A stretch of 42,678 nucleotides of DNA from a virus, in the IMG/VR virus record IMGVR_UViG_3300010339_000004, positions 1 to 42,678 of that record; one strand, written 5' to 3'. Below the pieces are notes generated by a model. The model was not told where the DNA came from. It did no database searches and was given only the letters and a program-made list of their open reading frames with translations. The translations under genes were made by a program, and so were the position numbers. Shown here one piece after another: positions 5,590-40,812 of this stretch. The stretch's first letter is position 1; each line of letters begins with the position of its first letter.

Positions 5590-6167
5590 GTTGTAGTCTT
5601 CCGTCCAAAAATCGCTTCAGATAATCCAGTTTGTGGACGTGTCGCCGGCATACCATTAACTCCGCCCCTTTGTACAGTATTATTATCCGTTGGATTACGT
5701 GGAGCAATCGGTACCGTTTGAATTTGAGTAATAGCAAATAATGTTTCTTTTAATTTTAATGCAACAATTACTGCATCAAATCTATCGGGATCTTCCTCAT
5801 GCGGCATCGACTGGATGACTTGATTAATATACTCCCCCGTTTTAGTTTGGACAATTAACAATTCCCTGGATAGATAAAGTTGTTTAATTTGTTGATAAAC
5901 ATTTAAATACCCCGCACTATTTAAGATAAGAGATAACTCGATTTCTATCGGGAGAATAATACTGTGATAAACAATAGTTGCTCCCGTTTCTAAGGGTTGC
6001 TCCATTACTTTAGACGCTTCTTTTACCACTGCTTTTAATGGACGGGCTTCGGAAAATACTTGTACGTAATTTTGATTATAAACGCCCACTACATCTAATG
6101 CGGACGAGGGAATTATGGAACCTATAATATGAGATATTGCGGGTGGAATGTCTGGAATTAGAGCCAT
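5586..6167 (-). CDS. Dit-like baseplate / tail-tip protein
   Basis: A 193-residue protein immediately after the tape measure. The central region (AVVKEASKVMEQPLETGATIVYHSIILPIEIEL) resembles Dit-like N-terminal domains that form the first ring under the tail tube. The C-terminal ~45 residues are proline/threonine-rich and look disordered. The ATG shares a base with the tape measure stop (TAATG). Family assignment is by pattern and gene order. Confidence 0.7.
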   Translation of the reverse strand: MALIPDIPPAISHIIGSIIPSSALDVVGVYNQNYVQVFSEARPLKAVVKEASKVMEQPLETGATIVYHSIILPIEIELSLILNSAGYLNVYQQIKQLYLSRELLIVQTKTGEYINQVIQSMPHEEDPDRFDAVIVALKLKETLFAITQIQTVPIAPRNPTDNNTVQRGGVNGMPATRPQTGLSEAIFGRKTTT

Positions 6168-7666
6168 TAGGCCATGACTCCATCATCAAAATTATTTACG
6201 GCTTGTCGCATTTGTGTATCTAAATTTTCACTAAAGGAACGCGATATCCCTTGGGCGTCCGTTGCTTTGGTTTGTATTGTTACATCGCCCACGGAAACAT
6301 TGGTCGCCCGGTGATTAATACGACTATTACTATTAATACTATTTGATGTTTGTGATCCCAGGGGGTTATTACTAGCTACCGATAAAGCGTCTTGTCCTGC
6401 TTTAATATTCACATTGGTGTTTCCACCAAATCCCAAGACTGATTTTACTTTATTATAAGCATTAGTAATTATATTAATCGCATTCATAACTTCCAACAGG
6501 GCACTTTTAATAATGGATACGACGCCTTGAAAAATATTATTAACGATTTGTCCACCTTGCAATAGGGCATCAAAAACCGCATTAACTACACCTACGGTAG
6601 TCCAAAAATTCTTAACAATATTTTTTATTGTTTCTTCGATAATATGTAATATTTTTCCAACGATTGGCCATCGCTTAATCATTTCCCCTATAACAGACTC
6701 GCTGCCTTTGTAAAATCCGCGTATGTCGTCATATAGTAAAGCAAATGCGGCGCCCACCGCAGCAATAGCTATACCAATAAGGATAAAAGGGGCGAACGTT
6801 AATGCCGCCGCAGCCGCAGCCACGCCGATAGCAATAAACGCGCCAACCACGATATCTTTGTGGCGACGTAGAAATAAAACAAATTTCTCTACGGATTTCA
6901 GTATGTCCGTAAAAATAGGTAGAATAGTACTATTGCCCGTGATAAATAAAGATCGAAAAGCGTGTTCAGTATTTACTAATTGTAAATTAAATTTTTCAGA
7001 AATATCCCCGTCTTGTTTAGTAACTACGCCCAGCTCTTTTTGCTGGGCAATCATGGCATCTACTTCACGCCTTCCCGACTGAAGCAATAAAATGGTACCA
7101 ATATCCAATCCCATTTTTTGGCCAATACCTAATGATTCAGCTTTGCTAAGCTTTTCAAACTTAGTAGCAATCTCCGGTAAAAGATCAATAAAATTCCTAG
7201 CTTTCCCTTTAGCATCCGTCATGCGGATACCTAACTCTTTGAAGAAGGGCGCGGCTCGACTATTCCCCTTCGTAGCAAAATCAGAAAGCGCGGCGGTCAT
7301 GCTTTGCACGGTGGCTTGGAATCCCGCGGATGTACCGCCACTTGCTTCCACTGCGTCACCCCACGCGCTTAAGTCTTCAATATTTACATTGACTGATTTA
7401 GATAATAAGCTAATTTCATCGGCAAAATGTGAAGCCCCTTTTATTCCTCCAATAACTGCCCCAACGGATGCAAACGCTAATAATGCGCTCCCGGCTTGAC
7501 GAATTAAATCTTTGAAATGATGGCCAACTTTTTCGCTAATTTGACCCGAGGCAGAAAGAGTTTCATTAAGAGATTTGACAGTTTTTTCCGCGTCTTGCGC
7601 GCCAGTTTTAACTTCTGAAGAATCTGATTTAAATAAAAAATAAAAAACATCTAATACAGACGACAT
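6167..7666 (-). CDS. Tail tape measure protein
   Basis: A 499-residue tape measure protein that sets tail length and occupies the tube. Residues 1-60 are charged and helical, with a small-residue hydrophobic segment at ~55-80. A long hydrophobic region at about 280-320 (alanine/isoleucine-rich) is typical of tape measures that insert into the host membrane. The C-terminus is Asn/Ser-rich then helical. At ~1.5 kb it predicts a rather short tail. The ATG lies one base after the stop of the frameshifted chaperone product. Confidence 0.9.
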   Translation of the reverse strand: MSSVLDVFYFLFKSDSSEVKTGAQDAEKTVKSLNETLSASGQISEKVGHHFKDLIRQAGSALLAFASVGAVIGGIKGASHFADEISLLSKSVNVNIEDLSAWGDAVEASGGTSAGFQATVQSMTAALSDFATKGNSRAAPFFKELGIRMTDAKGKARNFIDLLPEIATKFEKLSKAESLGIGQKMGLDIGTILLLQSGRREVDAMIAQQKELGVVTKQDGDISEKFNLQLVNTEHAFRSLFITGNSTILPIFTDILKSVEKFVLFLRRHKDIVVGAFIAIGVAAAAAALTFAPFILIGIAIAAVGAAFALLYDDIRGFYKGSESVIGEMIKRWPIVGKILHIIEETIKNIVKNFWTTVGVVNAVFDALLQGGQIVNNIFQGVVSIIKSALLEVMNAINIITNAYNKVKSVLGFGGNTNVNIKAGQDALSVASNNPLGSQTSNSINSNSRINHRATNVSVGDVTIQTKATDAQGISRSFSENLDTQMRQAVNNFDDGVMA

Positions 7667-7667
7667 T

Positions 7668-8197
7668 TCATTGTCCCTTTTTCTCTGCGTGTTTTATGGC
7701 TAAGTACTCGTTATATCGCGTAACCATAATCACTTCCCACAATAAAAAAGCGTCTTCTAGACTAAGGGTGGTTCGGAGTTCGGTGAGGGTGGCTTTTCCT
7801 TCGGCGATAATTGTTCCAAAAAAGCTGTCAATATTTTTGAAGTCTTCGCAAGCACACTCCGGGCGGTATCTTCGAAGAAAGTTGAGATCCGCCCTTGTGG
7901 AAAAAAACTTACGTTATATTGCATCATAGCTATTTCTAATTTAGCTAAAACCTCCCAAGACGTAACATGACTATCAATCAATGCCTTTGTTATTAAATTA
8001 ATTTTATGTCCATCTTTAATTTCAATTGCGACGTAAGACATCAACTTCAACATGGCCTCTTCATTCAATTGATAATCCCCGACTTTAGGCAATGCAGTCA
8101 TGGGGTATTTAGCGACAATTTCACGCCCCGCAATCGCAGGGAATTTAGAGATAATATACTTTTTTCCATCTATCTCAATTTCTTTCGGTTCAATCAT
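7668..8197 (-). CDS. Tail assembly chaperone GT fusion (made by -1 frameshift)
   Basis: Translation from 8197 that slips back one base on T7 (7907-7901) continues in the -1 frame to TGA at 7670-7668, giving 99 + 77 = 176 residues. The -1 frame is closed by TAA just upstream of the slip site, has no ATG start near its beginning and encodes a protein-like tail with FFGTIIAEGKATLTELRTTL followed by LSLEDAFLLWEVI and RYNEYLAIKHAEK. This is the known layout of G/GT chaperones of lambda, Mu and relatives, which coat the tape measure during tail assembly. It ends one base before the tape measure start, exactly where a T domain should end. Confidence 0.85.
7757..8197 (-). CDS. Tail assembly chaperone G (unshifted product)
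   Basis: The 0-frame product, 146 residues, beginning MIEPKEIEIDGKKYIISKFP. The N-terminal 99 residues are shared with the GT fusion and carry the conserved AxxGREI and helical YVAIEIKDG regions. The last ~47 residues are encoded by DNA that in the -1 frame makes the T domain, so this tail (ending proline-rich, KPPSPNSEPPLV) may be under little constraint. I chose ATG 8197, which overlaps the upstream stop by 8 bases and follows AGGGGAAG; the longer upstream extension would lie inside the neighbouring gene. Confidence 0.85.
   Translation of the reverse strand: MIEPKEIEIDGKKYIISKFPAIAGREIVAKYPMTALPKVGDYQLNEEAMLKLMSYVAIEIKDGHKINLITKALIDSHVTSWEVLAKLEIAMMQYNVSFFPQGRISTFFEDTARSVLAKTSKILTAFLEQLSPKEKPPSPNSEPPLV
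7901..7907 (-). promoter_or_regulatory. -1 ribosomal frameshift slippery site T TTT TTT
   Basis: On the minus strand the 0-frame codons are AGT TTT TTT CCA, so the run of seven T forms the canonical X XXY YYZ heptamer T TTT TTT. Re-pairing one base back keeps both Phe anticodons fully matched and next reads TCC in the T frame. A TAA in the -1 frame lies a few codons upstream, so the open -1 frame begins essentially at this site. Confidence 0.85.
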
Positions 8198-8456
8198 TAG
8201 CTTCTTCCCCTGTTTGACTGTTTTGAAACTCGTAGACTCGACCAATTTCAGATTTAGCAATAGCTAAAGCGTCGGTATCCGAATTTTCTATATTTATAAA
8301 AATCCAATGCGACTGGGGTACGTTTCTAAACTCAACGTATCTATATTTACTGCCATACCCAGCTATACCGTAAGTGATATAATGGCTAAATATATTTTCT
8401 GGATTGTTTAAAAAAATTTCCTTTACTTGACTTAACCCGCCTTGAAAAACATCCAT
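8190..8456 (-). CDS. Small tail-region protein of unknown function
   Basis: 88 residues between the tail tube and tail chaperone genes, same strand, with its stop overlapping the chaperone start by 8 bases. Sequence is mixed alpha/beta with aromatic-rich centre (GYGSKYRYVEFRNVPQSHWI). I do not recognise a family. Position suggests a role in tail assembly or a tail-tube accessory. Confidence 0.7.
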   Translation of the reverse strand: MDVFQGGLSQVKEIFLNNPENIFSHYITYGIAGYGSKYRYVEFRNVPQSHWIFINIENSDTDALAIAKSEIGRVYEFQNSQTGEEAND

Positions 8457-8457
8457 A

Positions 8458-8913
8458 CTAAAAAACCTGATTACTTACTTTATTTTCAAAGGCAAAAACG
8501 TATGCCTTAGTCTTAAATCGAGCAGCACTTGCTACTGAATTACCCGGCATACCGTTGGTAATTACTCCGTCTACCAAAGTAATATAACTTCCGTTGGGAA
8601 AAATACCAGTCATAGTAATACGATCCCGAGCAATCGATTTTCCCCGTGCCGCACGATTAGCTTCCAATAAAATTTGTAAATTCGTGTCGTCTTCGCCACT
8701 CGCCCACATATTTAATGTAATAGCGATGGGTACCGCTTTTGACCATACTAATAAATCACCATTCAATCCCATCGCTTTATCAGTAACCTGCAAAGACGGT
8801 AAATCAAAGGGATCTGCATCATCTGCAAATTCCGTGAGCGTTAACCCTGCCGGAAAAGTAAGGGAAGCTTGAACTTGTACGATTAAACCAAAACCCGAAA
8901 TATTTTGAGTCAT
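8458..8913 (-). CDS. Tail tube protein (DUF3277-like)
   Basis: A 151-residue tube protein that polymerises into the inner tail tube beneath the sheath. Recognisable segments are [15 protein letters not shown] near residues 28-42, [15 protein letters not shown], and the C-terminal [21 protein letters not shown] region, all typical of DUF3277 tubes. It starts at ATG 8913 after a GGGG-containing ribosome site and lies directly after the sheath gene, the standard sheath-tube order. Confidence 0.9.
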
Positions 8914-8925
8914 ATATGCCCCGTA

Positions 8926-10482
8926 TTAAATCAAAATGTGCGTACCATTGACACTATTGATAGTATCGTCTTTTTTATAAATTAAAGTATATTCTGCTGT
9001 ATACACCGTAATGCTATCTACCACAGTGGCTACAATTACAAAATTGATCCAATAGCCAATCGTTTGTACCTGATACCAAGCGGTATCGGTACCGCTCTCT
9101 TCGTTGATGTAAAGTATTTGTAATTGCGATAATACGTTACCCGTGCTGATCGTACCATTACGTAGAGCCTGATTAATCACGGGTTGTGCAATAGCTAAGA
9201 GTTGAGCTATACCTTGACTATTAGCAGCGATCTCATTTAATACTAATTGTAATCCCAATATAGCCGCGCCCATGTTATCACGTAACCAAATCTCGTTGGC
9301 ATAAACCGTTATTGTCTGCGGTTGCGTCAATGAAGGCCCCATCAATATACCGTTTTGATAAAAAGCAAGTAACGCGCCTGCTTGTTGAGTTTGACCATAA
9401 TAATTTACGCCCAAAGCATCATATTGCTCAGAGATAGAAAGATCGGTTACGGAGGGGGTTAATCCGGGAGCCATTTGGTAAAAATAATTTTGCACGGTAT
9501 TACGACCAAAATAATTTGTGGCCGCTAAAATCATCATAGGTAACATTTCGGGATATTGCGCCGGTGATAAACCCGTCGGTGATACCGTAACTGTTAATCC
9601 GAGATAACCCATCAATGTCCCGGCATAAGTGGTTGCGGCAGTCAAATTCGGAACCGGAATCATAAATAAAAAACTAATATTTTTCCCGGTATTCCAAATT
9701 GCAATTTCTTGATATTGCGTCAAATCTAAATTAAGCGATGTCAGGAAAAGAAAAGAACCGAAATTATTAGATAACGAAGCCGACAGAGTTAACGTTTGAG
9801 TAAGAGTTTCAGCCGCATTACCGTTTGACCAAATAGCACCGACATTAGCAGTAACAGCTTGAGTAAACCATCCGATAACCGCGGAAATATCTTGACCAAC
9901 GCCGCCGGCGGCTACAGAAACAACCGCTACTCCCGTTGCACCACCTACTAAGTCAAAACTTCCTCGCACAGAATCATAAGTGACCGTTGCACTTGTCCAC
10001 AGTGCCCCGCCACCGCTTTCTGCCTGAATGGCGGCTTGTATTGCGGCGGCAACGGCAGCTAAAGTTAAATCACTTGAAAAATTTAAGCCGCTGACATCAA
10101 AAGTAAAACCGCCCAAGGTAAGAGTAAAAGAACCATTGGTAACCGCTTGTAATGCCGAAAGAGTAGATCCTGCGGCTATTAAATTTTGGCCAAAAATCAT
10201 TGGTGCAACGGCAGCATTAGTCCATCGACCAAAAGATATTTTTTGCGGCGAAGAAATGCTTTTACTAATCCAAGCAAAATAAAAAGCGGCGCGAAGGTAC
10301 TCCTCGGAAGTTAATCCAAAATAAGCACCTACGGCCGCAGCACTAGTAAATTCTAAATACATTTGCGTTGGCAAAAGATTATTGGTTGTAAATAATCGGC
10401 CAATTAACTCTCGGGTAGGGACAATGGTCGCCCCACCAATGCCCGAAGTAATATTGACATATTTAGAAATCGGAATTGCCAT
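8926..10482 (-). CDS. Contractile tail sheath protein (DUF3383 family)
   Basis: A 518-residue sheath protein; this gene is the main proof of a contractile tail. It opens MAIPISKYVNITSGIGGA, has the early V-x-TRELIGRLFTTNNLLPT segment, the LTSEEYLRAAFYFAWISKSI segment near residue 60-75, an inserted domain of about 110-200, and a C-terminal region with QYDALGVNYYGQTQQAG followed by a NEIWLRDNMGAAILGL stretch. GGAG lies upstream of the ATG. Contraction drives the tube through the cell envelope. Confidence 0.93.
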   Translation of the reverse strand: MAIPISKYVNITSGIGGATIVPTRELIGRLFTTNNLLPTQMYLEFTSAAAVGAYFGLTSEEYLRAAFYFAWISKSISSPQKISFGRWTNAAVAPMIFGQNLIAAGSTLSALQAVTNGSFTLTLGGFTFDVSGLNFSSDLTLAAVAAAIQAAIQAESGGGALWTSATVTYDSVRGSFDLVGGATGVAVVSVAAGGVGQDISAVIGWFTQAVTANVGAIWSNGNAAETLTQTLTLSASLSNNFGSFLFLTSLNLDLTQYQEIAIWNTGKNISFLFMIPVPNLTAATTYAGTLMGYLGLTVTVSPTGLSPAQYPEMLPMMILAATNYFGRNTVQNYFYQMAPGLTPSVTDLSISEQYDALGVNYYGQTQQAGALLAFYQNGILMGPSLTQPQTITVYANEIWLRDNMGAAILGLQLVLNEIAANSQGIAQLLAIAQPVINQALRNGTISTGNVLSQLQILYINEESGTDTAWYQVQTIGYWINFVIVATVVDSITVYTAEYTLIYKKDDTINSVNGTHILI

Positions 10483-37296: not shown

Positions 37297-37653
37297 ATGC
37301 CCATTCCAATTGTAATGAATGAACCCCAAGCCATAGTATTAGATACTTCAGGAATAGTTTTTGTATTAACAAAAATTCCTCAAGATATTTTCTCTCCAAA
37401 ACTACTAGTAAGCTACCTTTTAGATGCTCAAATGCAGGAAGAGCAAATAGGAAAAACTTTTATTAATAATCCACATAGGACAATTTTACTATCTCATGTA
37501 TTTGTTTTATGCGGCGAATATGTCGACCAATTAGATAATGAAGAAGATATTAAAAAGTATTGTATAACACCAGGTATTATAGAGAAAATAGAGATAGCTA
37601 TGCTTAATTATAATTTAGAAATAGTTTTTACTCAAGGAGACGTAAATGACTGA
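37297..37653 (+). CDS. Orphan protein upstream of ssDNA-binding gene
   Basis: 118 residues, MPIPIVMNEPQAIVLDTSGI at the start; mixed alpha/beta with acidic DQLDNEEDIKKY. AAGGAG before ATG. It overlaps the next gene by 8 bases. Not recognised. Confidence 0.65.
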   Translation: MPIPIVMNEPQAIVLDTSGIVFVLTKIPQDIFSPKLLVSYLLDAQMQEEQIGKTFINNPHRTILLSHVFVLCGEYVDQLDNEEDIKKYCITPGIIEKIEIAMLNYNLEIVFTQGDVND

Positions 37654-38509
37654 ACAGTATGAATTTTTAACGCCGGTCGGTGGACGGCTGGTAGCAGGAT
37701 CGCTATACCAACCACAGACCACAAATGTGGACGGAAAATCTTTAATTGATAAAAAAGGTCAAGCATATGTTAAATATTTTATAGCCGTGGCTATTCAAAA
37801 AGGTAACGAAAAACATTGGTCAGAAACAGAATGGGGATCTAAAATATGGCAAGCCGGTCATGCGCTAAATCCAACTTCAGCACGCTCACCCGTGTTTGCA
37901 TGGAAAGTAGTGGATGGAGATAGTACCGTACCTAATCAAAAAGGTATTACTCCCGCGGAACGAGAAGCGTATCCGGGTAATTGGGTTTTATCTTTTAGTA
38001 ATGGTTTTCCTACCAATATTTATAATTTCTCTGACGGCACTCAACGAATAGTAACGGAGGAAAATTTTGTTAATCGCGGCGATTATATCCAAGTTTTTGC
38101 AAACATACGTGACAACGGTTCCCCGCGCAATCCAGGGTTATTTTTAAATCAATCCATGATTGCTTTTAACGCTTACGGCGAACGATTATCTTATATGCCG
38201 GATGTTGAAGACGTTGGTTTTGGCCAAGGTCAATTGCCACCTGGCGCAAGTCTAACTCCACTGTCGGGTATGACAACTCCGGCGGCACCGACATCTGCTG
38301 TTTCTGCACCGCCGCCGGTTATGCCAAAACCAATTGTTGTTACTCCGCATACTGCAATACTTATTCCCCCGGCGGCACCCACTCCACCTATGCCTATCGT
38401 TTCCGCCAGTCCTCGCATGTCTACCAAAGCGCAAGGTAGCAGTTACGAACAACTTATTTCTGTGGGTTGGACAGACGAATTATTAAAACAACATGGAATG
38501 TTTGCATGA
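37646..38509 (+). CDS. Putative ssDNA-binding protein
   Basis: 287 residues. Opens EFLTPVGGRLVAGSLYQPQT, then YVKYFIAVAIQKGNEKHWSE and FAWKVVDGDSTVPNQKG, GNWVLSFSNGF, a beta-rich OB-like core; this is a family seen next to DUF2800 nucleases and polymerases and taken as the phage ssDNA-binding protein. A long Pro/Ala-rich linker (215-265) leads to a C-terminal SYEQLISVGWTDELLKQHG motif, likely the contact with partner proteins. ATGA overlap with the polymerase gene. Confidence 0.8.
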   Translation: MTEQYEFLTPVGGRLVAGSLYQPQTTNVDGKSLIDKKGQAYVKYFIAVAIQKGNEKHWSETEWGSKIWQAGHALNPTSARSPVFAWKVVDGDSTVPNQKGITPAEREAYPGNWVLSFSNGFPTNIYNFSDGTQRIVTEENFVNRGDYIQVFANIRDNGSPRNPGLFLNQSMIAFNAYGERLSYMPDVEDVGFGQGQLPPGASLTPLSGMTTPAAPTSAVSAPPPVMPKPIVVTPHTAILIPPAAPTPPMPIVSASPRMSTKAQGSSYEQLISVGWTDELLKQHGMFA

Positions 38510-40812
38510 ATATTCCGTTGCCGCCACAGTTAGATACTCTATCTGCCGGTACCCAATTAAAAGCAGGACATGGGATAGCTACGATCCTTGCTGATTTTGA
38601 TTTTGAAACTTACAGTCCGGCGGGTTACGTGTGGAAATCGCATAGCCAAACGTGGGGCTGTTTACTCAACACTAAAATCAAAGGATTATCTGTGGTCGGT
38701 GCAGCGGTATATACCCAACACCCGGATGCTGAAGTTTTATCCTTGGCCTATAATCTTAAAGATGGTAGAGGTAAACGACAGTGGATACCCGGTCAACCTC
38801 ATCCACAAGATTTATTTGATCATATTGCCAGAGGAGAATTGTTAGAAGCTTGGAATGTGTCGTTTGAATACTGGGTTTGGGTTAATATATGCCAGCCTAA
38901 GTATGGCTGGCCGAGGCTATCCTCTAATAATTTACGTTGCGCCATGGCTAAAGCGCGGGCTTTTTCATTACCCGGAGGGTTAGATAAAGCCGCCGAAGTA
39001 TTAGGTACAAAAAATAGAAAAAATCCGGAAGGTAAACGATTACTCGATAAATTTAGTAAACCACGTAACCCTACTAAAACAGATGACAGAGTACGAATAC
39101 TACCAAACTTAAATGATCCCGACACTAGAAAACTCTACGAATATAATATCCAAGACATCACCGTTGAAGCTGAGTGTTCAAGTTTGATTCCCGATCTAAG
39201 AGATTTTGAATTAAAATTTTGGCAATGCGATCAAATTATAAATCGCAGAGGCGTACAAATAGATACTGAATCAATTAAAAATTGTATCATTATTTTAGAA
39301 CAGATAACCGAAAAATATAACGAAGAATTGTGTAGTTTAACAAATGGTGCAGTAACAAGTGCCTCTCAAGTACCTGCACTAAAAACTTGGTTATATCATC
39401 AACATGATTTATTAGTTGATGGTCTTGATGAAGATAAGCTTCAACGATTGCTAAATAGACCCAACTTACACAAAGATGTTCGACGAGTTTTACAAATACG
39501 ACAACTCTTAGGTTCTGCGGCAGTTAAAAAATTATATACGATGTTAAATCAGGCAACTTCAAAAGGCCGATTACATGATTTATTTATCTATCATTCGGCT
39601 CGTACGGGTCGTACGGCAGGTGCTGGACCTCAACCACAAAATTTACCTAACAGTGGTCCCGCGGTTTTAGGGTGTAATCATAAAAAAGAAGATGCTGCGG
39701 ATTATAATTTTTGCGGTAAATACTCAATTAACAAAGACAATATCTGCGCGTGGTGTGGAAAATTATTAAAGTCTTATCATTGGGGTGAATGGAATGCCAC
39801 TGCTGTTAAAGATGCTCTAGAAACTATGGCCTCTGGAGCTTCGGGATGTATTGAATACTACTGGGATGAAGATATATTAAATATTGTAGCGGGTTGTTTA
39901 CGCGGATTATTTATTGCCGCACCTCATCATATATTAATTGGCTCTGATTATAGTGCAATTGAGGCGGTTGTATTAGCCGCACTAGCCGGTGAAGAATGGC
40001 GGTTAGACGTTTTTCGTACTCATGGAAAAATTTATGAAATGTCGGCGTCTAAAATTACAGGCATACCTTTTGAAGAATTTGAAGAATATAAAAATCGCAC
40101 TGGTCAACATCATCCTATGCGGAAAAAAATAGGTAAGGTAGCTGAACTTGCCAGTGGTTACCAAGGCTGGATTGGTGCATGGAAACAATTCGGAGCCGAT
40201 GAATTTTTCAATGATGACGAAATTAAACATTCTATTTTGCAGTGGCGTTTCGCTAGTCCCAAAATTGTTGAAATGTGGGGTGGACAATCTAAAAATTGGA
40301 AAACTGAGTACTATGGACTAGAAGGATGCGCGATTTCCGCATTACTATTCCCTGATGTGGAATTCGAATATAGAGGAATAAAATGTATTGTTAATCAAGG
40401 AATTTTATATATACGATTATTATCGGGTAGATACTTGACGTATCATAAAGCCAAATTAGAGATGAGTCAACGACGCGCTAACGAATATGCTATAACTTTT
40501 GAGGGATGGAATACCAACCCTAAAAATGGCGGCATAGGTTGGATACGAATGAATACGTATGGCGGTAGGCTTACGGAGAACATTGTACAGGCTACGGCGC
40601 GAGATGTTTTAGCAAACGCTATTATTAATTTAGAAAAATATAATTACCCAGTAGTCTTACAAGTACACGATGAAATCATCGCAGAAATACCAATAAATTT
40701 CGGTAGTGTTAAACAATTTGAAACGATAATGTCCACAATGCCCGTTTGGGCAAAAGATTGGCCGATTAAAGCTTCGGGCGGTTGGTTGGACAATAGATAC
40801 AGAAAGGACTAA
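38506..40812 (+). CDS. Family A DNA polymerase with 3'-5' exonuclease and zinc insertion
   Basis: 768 residues from ATG 38506 (MNIPLPPQLD). Exonuclease: DFDFE (D32, E34), WNVSFE (N117), YNIQD (D217). Polymerase: SARTGRTAGAGPQPQNLP (364-381), motif A GSDYSAIE (D481), motif B RKKIGKVAELASGYQG (539-554), motif C QVHDE (H721-D722-E723). A likely zinc module, GCNH...C...CAWC (390-417), interrupts the fingers region. There is no 5'-3' exonuclease domain. It replicates phage DNA with the PrimPol/helicase. Confidence 0.95.
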   Translation: MNIPLPPQLDTLSAGTQLKAGHGIATILADFDFETYSPAGYVWKSHSQTWGCLLNTKIKGLSVVGAAVYTQHPDAEVLSLAYNLKDGRGKRQWIPGQPHPQDLFDHIARGELLEAWNVSFEYWVWVNICQPKYGWPRLSSNNLRCAMAKARAFSLPGGLDKAAEVLGTKNRKNPEGKRLLDKFSKPRNPTKTDDRVRILPNLNDPDTRKLYEYNIQDITVEAECSSLIPDLRDFELKFWQCDQIINRRGVQIDTESIKNCIIILEQITEKYNEELCSLTNGAVTSASQVPALKTWLYHQHDLLVDGLDEDKLQRLLNRPNLHKDVRRVLQIRQLLGSAAVKKLYTMLNQATSKGRLHDLFIYHSARTGRTAGAGPQPQNLPNSGPAVLGCNHKKEDAADYNFCGKYSINKDNICAWCGKLLKSYHWGEWNATAVKDALETMASGASGCIEYYWDEDILNIVAGCLRGLFIAAPHHILIGSDYSAIEAVVLAALAGEEWRLDVFRTHGKIYEMSASKITGIPFEEFEEYKNRTGQHHPMRKKIGKVAELASGYQGWIGAWKQFGADEFFNDDEIKHSILQWRFASPKIVEMWGGQSKNWKTEYYGLEGCAISALLFPDVEFEYRGIKCIVNQGILYIRLLSGRYLTYHKAKLEMSQRRANEYAITFEGWNTNPKNGGIGWIRMNTYGGRLTENIVQATARDVLANAIINLEKYNYPVVLQVHDEIIAEIPINFGSVKQFETIMSTMPVWAKDWPIKASGGWLDNRYRKD

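Follow-up and report, generated by a model that had tools for sequence, protein, structure and literature searches.

A predicted programmed -1 ribosomal frameshift in the tail assembly chaperones of a family of contractile-tailed phages

The stretch of DNA analysed here (the window) is the whole of IMG/VR virus record IMGVR_UViG_3300010339_000004, 42,678 bases in length, and its tail genes lie on the minus strand. At positions 7668-8197, a gene referred to as G and an overlapping frame without a start of its own, referred to as T, very probably make up a tail assembly chaperone gene, in a phage with a contractile tail, that is read with a programmed -1 ribosomal frameshift and would so give a short product, G, and a longer one, G-T. 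This proposal, put forward in an initial annotation as a canonical -1 frameshift yielding a GT chaperone, is supported by conservation of the frame and the slippery heptamer, a covarying RNA stem, the position of the gene ahead of the tape measure gene, and a fold similar to that of the HK97 chaperone. Frameshifted tail chaperones are widespread, and the roles of lambda gpG and gpGT have been described (PMC5009743).

The proposed frameshift element

The following features, all on the minus strand, make up the element.

7757-8197, minus strand: G, zero-frame open reading frame (ORF) of the putative tail assembly chaperone, 146 residues, from the ATG at 8197 to the stop TAG at 7759-7757
7901-7907, minus strand: slippery heptamer T_TTT_TTT, phased for a -1 shift (sequence and family conservation)
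7895-7900, minus strand: spacer CCACAA, 6 nucleotides (nt), from heptamer to stem (RNA fold)
7861-7894, minus strand: RNA stem-loop 3' of the slip site, nine pairs with one bulge, arms 7894-7886 and 7870-7861 (fold, covariation and stability peak)
7668-7913, minus strand: T, open -1 frame with the stop TGA at 7670-7668 (tblastn relatives; phrog_3976, E 6.4e-15)
7760-7900, minus strand: dual-coded overlap of 47 codons between the G tail and T (position-specific divergence and synonymous recoding null)

The zero-frame codons at the heptamer are AGT TTT TTT CCA, in which T_TTT_TTT occupies the X_XXY_YYZ phase. The -1 frame is closed upstream by a TAA at 7916-7914, 6 nt before the heptamer, and is then open to 7668. 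The first ATG, GTG or TTG in this frame is the TTG at 7742, deep within the T domain, with none before the domain, and the tape measure gene begins with an ATG at 7666, one base past the T stop. A shift at the heptamer would join 99 residues of G to 77 of T (7901-7671), giving a fusion of 176 residues that is 30 longer than G, and the unshifted frame runs for 47 further codons past the slip site to its TAG. These particulars, namely the span, the phase of the heptamer, the -1 frame closed just upstream, the T domain lacking a start, its end beside the tape measure gene and the ~47 unshifted residues, agree with the initial annotation. Moreover, G lies between the tail tube and tape measure genes, as do G/GT chaperones. 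Within this record, which is possibly a fragment, the T profile matched 7677-7907 only, revealing no second T-domain site, and neither the T nor the G profile found a separate single-frame long chaperone gene.

Conservation of the frame and the heptamer

Relatives were collected by tblastn of the fusion, which gave 66 phage records, several of them matching in two pieces in two frames, and further loci came from IMG/VR scans (in the second, the best 80 of 175) and from a scan of one genome per species. Of the 140 family loci examined, the window included, 137 contain both G and T, and 136 of these 137 have T in the -1 frame; the exception is Burkholderia phage Bm1 (L023), with G and T in a common frame. 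Given so consistent a relation between the frames, a sequencing error, with six or eight T in place of seven giving one continuous frame, which the initial annotation had raised as an objection, is rejected.

The motif TTTTTTN stands at the slip site in 133 of the 136 -1-frame loci (86 with C, 45 with T, one with G and one with A at the last position), and three loci are without it. In the same G genes, TTT accounts for 55% of Phe codons and codons ending in T for 27% of Ser codons, and the codon-usage expectation for T-TTT, given Ser or Gly followed by Phe, is ~0.15 (~15% of Ser-Phe-Phe). Since the motif is found in 133/136 loci against this ~15%, the element is not a product of chance. At loci with some residue other than Ser or Gly before the slip, the codon of that residue likewise has T as its last base (6/6). 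Clustering at 75% identity groups the 132 loci that have 300 nt around the slip site into 68 clusters. In addition, in 120 of 127 loci the T stop is adjoined by the beginning of an ORF of more than 150 codons. In deposited records of frameshift-type relatives (L015-L021, L024, L025), G is given as an ordinary coding sequence and no joined G-T product is listed.

RNA structure downstream of the slip site

In the window, the 6-nt spacer after the slip site is followed by a GC-rich stem. In a covariation set of 21 sequences, hand-picked from the 133, the nine stem pairs are kept in 89.9% of cells, compared with 82.4 in shuffled sequences and 22-48 when the stem is slid, and seven of the nine pairs show two-sided changes. 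Across all 87 distinct rows whose tails are 38, 41 or 47 codons long, 66% of cells are paired, versus a mean of 57.7 and a maximum of 60.0 in 500 shuffles and 24-44% for the slid stem. A scan that presupposes no stem, with 42-nt segments over 112 distinct loci, places a stability peak just past the slip site (-11.5 and -12.1 kcal/mol), mean energies elsewhere being -3.4 to -9.1 kcal/mol. The slip segment is among the most stable tenth of its own gene in 55% of loci, with a median percentile of 6%, and in the window the slip site is the most stable spot in the gene. Relative to shuffles, the 55 nt past the slip have a mean z of -0.84, and control segments -0.40. No Rfam family was detected in the window. 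With a heptamer, a short spacer and a predicted stable downstream structure, the locus carries the parts by which -1 frameshift elements are recognized.

Protein folds and family matches

The AlphaFold2 model of G, built with 77 sequences, is mostly confident over residues 1-95, with a mean predicted local distance difference test score (pLDDT) of 75.2. Foldseek with this model ranked 5ir0, a protein of a Vibrio cholerae element resembling phage-inducible chromosomal islands (PICI-like), first (E 4.5e-3), and the HK97 chaperone 2ob9 third (E 0.14). In VIA-align, 5ir0 reached a Z of 9.7 (96 aligned) and YqbN (3klu), which we take to be a phage-like chaperone, 7.3 (83 aligned). The HK97 chaperone gave a Z of 6.2, modest on its own as is any Z below 8, with a root-mean-square deviation of 3.6 over 80 aligned residues at 12% identity, and the next row stood at 3.5. 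The modelled core of G resembles the HK97 tail assembly chaperone in fold, and the T model is helical, with a pLDDT of 88.3. The best structural match, 5ir0 (ORF19 of the PICI-like element), is a satellite protein, and may itself have a tail-assembly-chaperone fold.

A search of PDB sequences with the G profile gave nothing credible. In PHROGs, T alone corresponds to phrog_3976 (77 of 77 sequences) and the G part to phrog_4627 (66 of 77), both of 'unknown function'. The fusion matches phrog_20369 (E 5.6e-6), and the window fusion also aligns along positions 1 to 174 of phrog_4774, likewise of 'unknown function'. The G profile has a further weak match in the window at 37315-37650 on the plus strand (E 0.0016, 13 bits), in a 118-residue ORF (37297-37653) of the replication region, which is probably due to chance.

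Counter-evidence and alternative explanations

Several observations weigh against the frameshift proposal. The G of the window has no Pfam family match and reaches the PHROG tail assembly chaperone family phrog_1613 at E 4.9e-4 only, a weak support from family libraries, and no PDB entry matches the T model with confidence. The G tail past the slip is modelled as one helix with low confidence (pLDDT ~50). Taken alone, the window stem is unremarkable versus shuffles (z -0.87 and -1.23); clades whose tails measure 35, 45, 48 and 52 codons do not conserve this exact stem, and stability in the tail-48 clade is weaker (median percentile 28%). Finally, the heptamer has been lost in eight of nine enterobacterial-type loci (L015, L016, L144, L150-L155), which read TTC TTC G(A/C)A AAG, L153 alone having TTTTTTC.

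All nine of these loci keep T in the -1 frame, and the heptamer is therefore not strictly required everywhere. TTC G(A/C)A AAG is invariant in this clade, which may use another kind of slip signal, and one could guess at the invariant A_AAG as its slip point. No strong stem was found at the enterobacterial slip region. The L144 locus had no match in E. coli genomes, and among plasmid records it matched two Proteus records only.

The shift could in principle be made during transcription. RNA polymerase slips on homopolymer T runs, and the window offers seven T in a row; most heptamer loci, however, have the shorter run T6C (86 of 133), and the phased heptamer, the 6-nt spacer and the covarying stem match the requirements of a ribosomal signal, which leaves transcriptional slippage very unlikely. 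Marginally less probable still is that T is a separate short protein, whose translation re-initiates or begins at a non-standard start within G. PHROGs does include a free-standing T family of 67 residues, phrog_3976, so that a start within T may have been assigned in some annotations, and the early T frame of some loci contains an ATG, GTG or TTG. Against this, the window has no start ahead of the TTG at 7742, starts are absent or elsewhere in most loci, homology extends back to the two Phe residues of the slip site, relatives fuse T in frame to the G domain, and re-initiation would leave the conserved heptamer and stem unexplained.

Selection on both frames in the overlap

In G/GT chaperones made by -1 frameshifting, the slip site is typically, though not by strict definition, a few codons away from where the short product ends, and here it lies 47 codons from that point. 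All 133 heptamer loci have a G tail of 35-52 codons past the slip (58 loci with 41 codons, 24 with 48, 22 with 38, 14 with 47, nine with 45, four with 52 and two with 35), making the long tail a trait of the family and not a peculiarity of this genome.

Divergence in the overlap was compared in ~28 independent pairs of relatives with equal tail length, picked by their upstream or T-only divergence. Upstream of the slip, substitutions at G third positions amount to 0.461, and downstream of the G stop, those at T third positions amount to 0.385. In the overlap, divergence by G codon position is 0.085/0.169/0.167, corresponding to 0.169 at the T wobble position, 0.167 at the G wobble position and 0.085 at the remaining one. 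In a synonymous recoding null, in which T is fixed and its codons are redrawn, an average of 10% of draws (130 loci) leave G without a stop across its tail, and for the window genome the share is 2.8% (0.028). Both frames are under selection in the overlap, to judge from these sequence comparisons, and the G tail is therefore probably not mere read-on. The RNA stem, being situated in the overlap, may contribute to the constraint as well.

It is rather unlikely, although less so than the two alternatives to ribosomal slippage, that the tail is a passive read-on without function and that T alone is selected in the overlap, a reading that would rival the idea of two C-termini and leave the frameshift untouched. 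The tail is poorly modelled, and its length differs among clades (35-52 codons), as such a reading would have it. If T alone were selected, however, its wobble position in the overlap should diverge at a rate near 0.385, not 0.169, the G wobble position is just as restrained, and the recoding null rarely leaves the G frame open. The stem restrains some wobble positions too, yet it spans just part of the overlap. Moreover, in Aeromonas phage Gekk3-15, where G is without a T frame, the match of G to the G profile extends to position 134, beyond the slip.

Relatives with two putative chaperone genes

A search with the single-frame protein of Bm1 gave 369 phage records, 293 of them from Pseudomonas, some frameshift relatives being included. 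In the four split-gene genomes examined (Pbunavirus Pa193, Wifcevirus WFC, Aeromonas phage Gekk3-15 and Bm1), a G gene lies upstream of the tape measure gene and a single-frame gene with the T domain lies downstream, near the baseplate hub and tail tip. The T profile found all four long proteins (41-52 bits) and scored the G proteins below zero or left them unmatched; the G profile found all four G proteins (22-130 bits), matching the long proteins weakly and that of Pa193 not at all. No T was found in the -1 frame of G in Pa193, WFC or Gekk3-15. Judged by sequence, the tail-tip genes at L029:9060-9593 (Pa193 gp59), L026:8128-8649 (Wifcevirus gp045) and L028:2917-3363, annotated in the records as 'hypothetical' or 'spike', resemble G-T chaperones encoded in a single frame.

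Homologues in which T has an independent start, which the initial annotation had named as an argument against frameshifting, were encountered only as a complete single-frame G-T gene elsewhere in the genome, accompanied by a G without a T frame; the objection holds in that form alone, and the frameshift in the window is unrefuted by it. In the cryo-electron microscopy atlas of Pa193, the listed baseplate proteins skip gp40 and gp43 (PMC11042391). We infer that these two are G and the long gene, given an offset of 16 to RefSeq numbering obtained via the sheath, tape measure and hub. Chaperones would be expected to be missing from virions, but that a protein is missing from a structural model is weak evidence. 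A G-domain tree (39 rows), with long branches and 20 of 36 inner branches open, decides neither for frameshift first nor for split genes first, and no direction is claimed.

Comparison with known systems

Lambda gpG/gpGT (GGGAAAG) is similar to the element in the window in having the gene between tube and tape measure, a start-less T in the -1 frame and a phased heptamer, but its G ends five codons past the slip, as opposed to 47, and its T domain is longer. P2 E/E+E' (TTTTTTG) shares a T-rich heptamer, an annotated -1 shift and a position adjoining the tape measure gene, and differs in that E ends six codons past the slip. Mean slip-to-stop distances of 26 and 36 nt have been reported (PMC10885494). 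Relative to these values, the claim in the initial annotation that the long tail is unlike classic cases stands. It is no bar to membership among G/GT chaperones, because distances above 30 nt are reported in part of the Xu set (PMC10885494). Phage Mu gp41 was considered as a precedent for the long tail and rejected, since it has no in-phase XXXYYYZ and a -2 shift is reported for it (PMC2628397).

The chaperones of Vandenendeviridae and Andersonviridae, with a conserved GTTTTT, are also those of contractile phages, with a T-rich slip site before the tape measure gene and a case argued from frame conservation; unlike in the present analysis, neither stem covariation nor a dual-coding test is noted in the available part of that account (PMC12846349). 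Two-gene short and long chaperones have been reported for T4-like phages (Vladimirov et al. 2022, cited in PMC10885494), and the two-gene idea is therefore not new. They follow the same two-product logic as the split genes of Pbunavirus, Wifcevirus, Gekk3-15 and Bm1, but belong to other phage groups, and the window itself has a single G-T locus.

Proposed mechanism and significance

Most ribosomes would read G to its end (146 residues), and a minority would pause at the stem-loop ~6 nt past T_TTT_TTT, slip back one base and finish the 176-residue G-T, the last 77 residues of which would be the helical T domain. By analogy with lambda, many copies of G and few of G-T would coat the tape measure protein through their shared first 99 residues, and the T domain would recruit tube subunits. 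We infer the slipping itself, its rate and these binding partners. As both frames are constrained in the overlap, the unshifted protein, unlike those of lambda and P2, has a conserved C-terminal segment of its own (35-52 residues), and the shift would swap one C-terminus for another instead of just adding one.

On a broader view, which we hold to have an even chance of being right, the frameshift would be a switch between two alternative functional C-termini, the split genes of Pbunavirus and Wifcevirus, with Pa193 gp59 (PHROG 4774), would encode G-T, and the enterobacterial loci would use a non-heptameric slip. Pbunavirus and Wifcevirus relatives would, if this is true, avoid double coding through separate genes, and a candidate function would be available for a gene, annotated as 'hypothetical protein', that occurs in hundreds of records of Pseudomonas phages.

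No report linking DUF3383 to a tail assembly chaperone or to frameshifting was found, subscription literature being mostly outside reach. Under the same limit, and for frameshifting on the basis of titles and the openings of abstracts, no report of a Pbunavirus tail assembly chaperone or frameshift was found, apart from one paper on another genus (PMC12846349). As far as the literature was searched, the element in a family with a DUF3383 sheath, the 35-52-codon overlap with selection on G and T alike, the stem that covaries and the connection of Pbunavirus-like genes with single-frame G-T are new. The two-product chaperone rule of long-tailed phages would be extended, with selection evidence at the sequence level, to a contractile family whose T is unannotated in the opened records. 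Furthermore, this family offers a natural series, from a frameshift with the heptamer, through a -1 frame without it, to two separate genes, which allows one to ask why frameshifting persists and what the unshifted C-terminus does.

Neighbouring genes and minor observations

The tail genes are ordered as sheath (DUF3383), tube (E217_Gp32), an 88-residue gene, G, tape measure and then baseplate genes. The neighbours with family matches are listed below.

6167-7666, minus strand: tail tape measure protein, 499 residues (phrog_34923, E 6.7e-64)
8458-8913, minus strand: tail tube protein, E217_Gp32 family (PF22764, E 3.2e-55)
8926-10482, minus strand: tail sheath protein, DUF3383 (PF11863, E 9e-96; phrog_205, tail sheath)

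The 88-residue gene between tube and G (8190-8456, minus strand) has no confident match in Pfam, PHROGs or NCBIfam, and the opened records of frameshift-type phages (L015-L021, L024, L025) list no gene at its place. Elsewhere in the window, a DNA polymerase A-like ORF at 38467-40812 on the plus strand matches its profile over positions 141-205 of 381 only and is directly followed by small ORFs; it might be a divergent or a broken polymerase.
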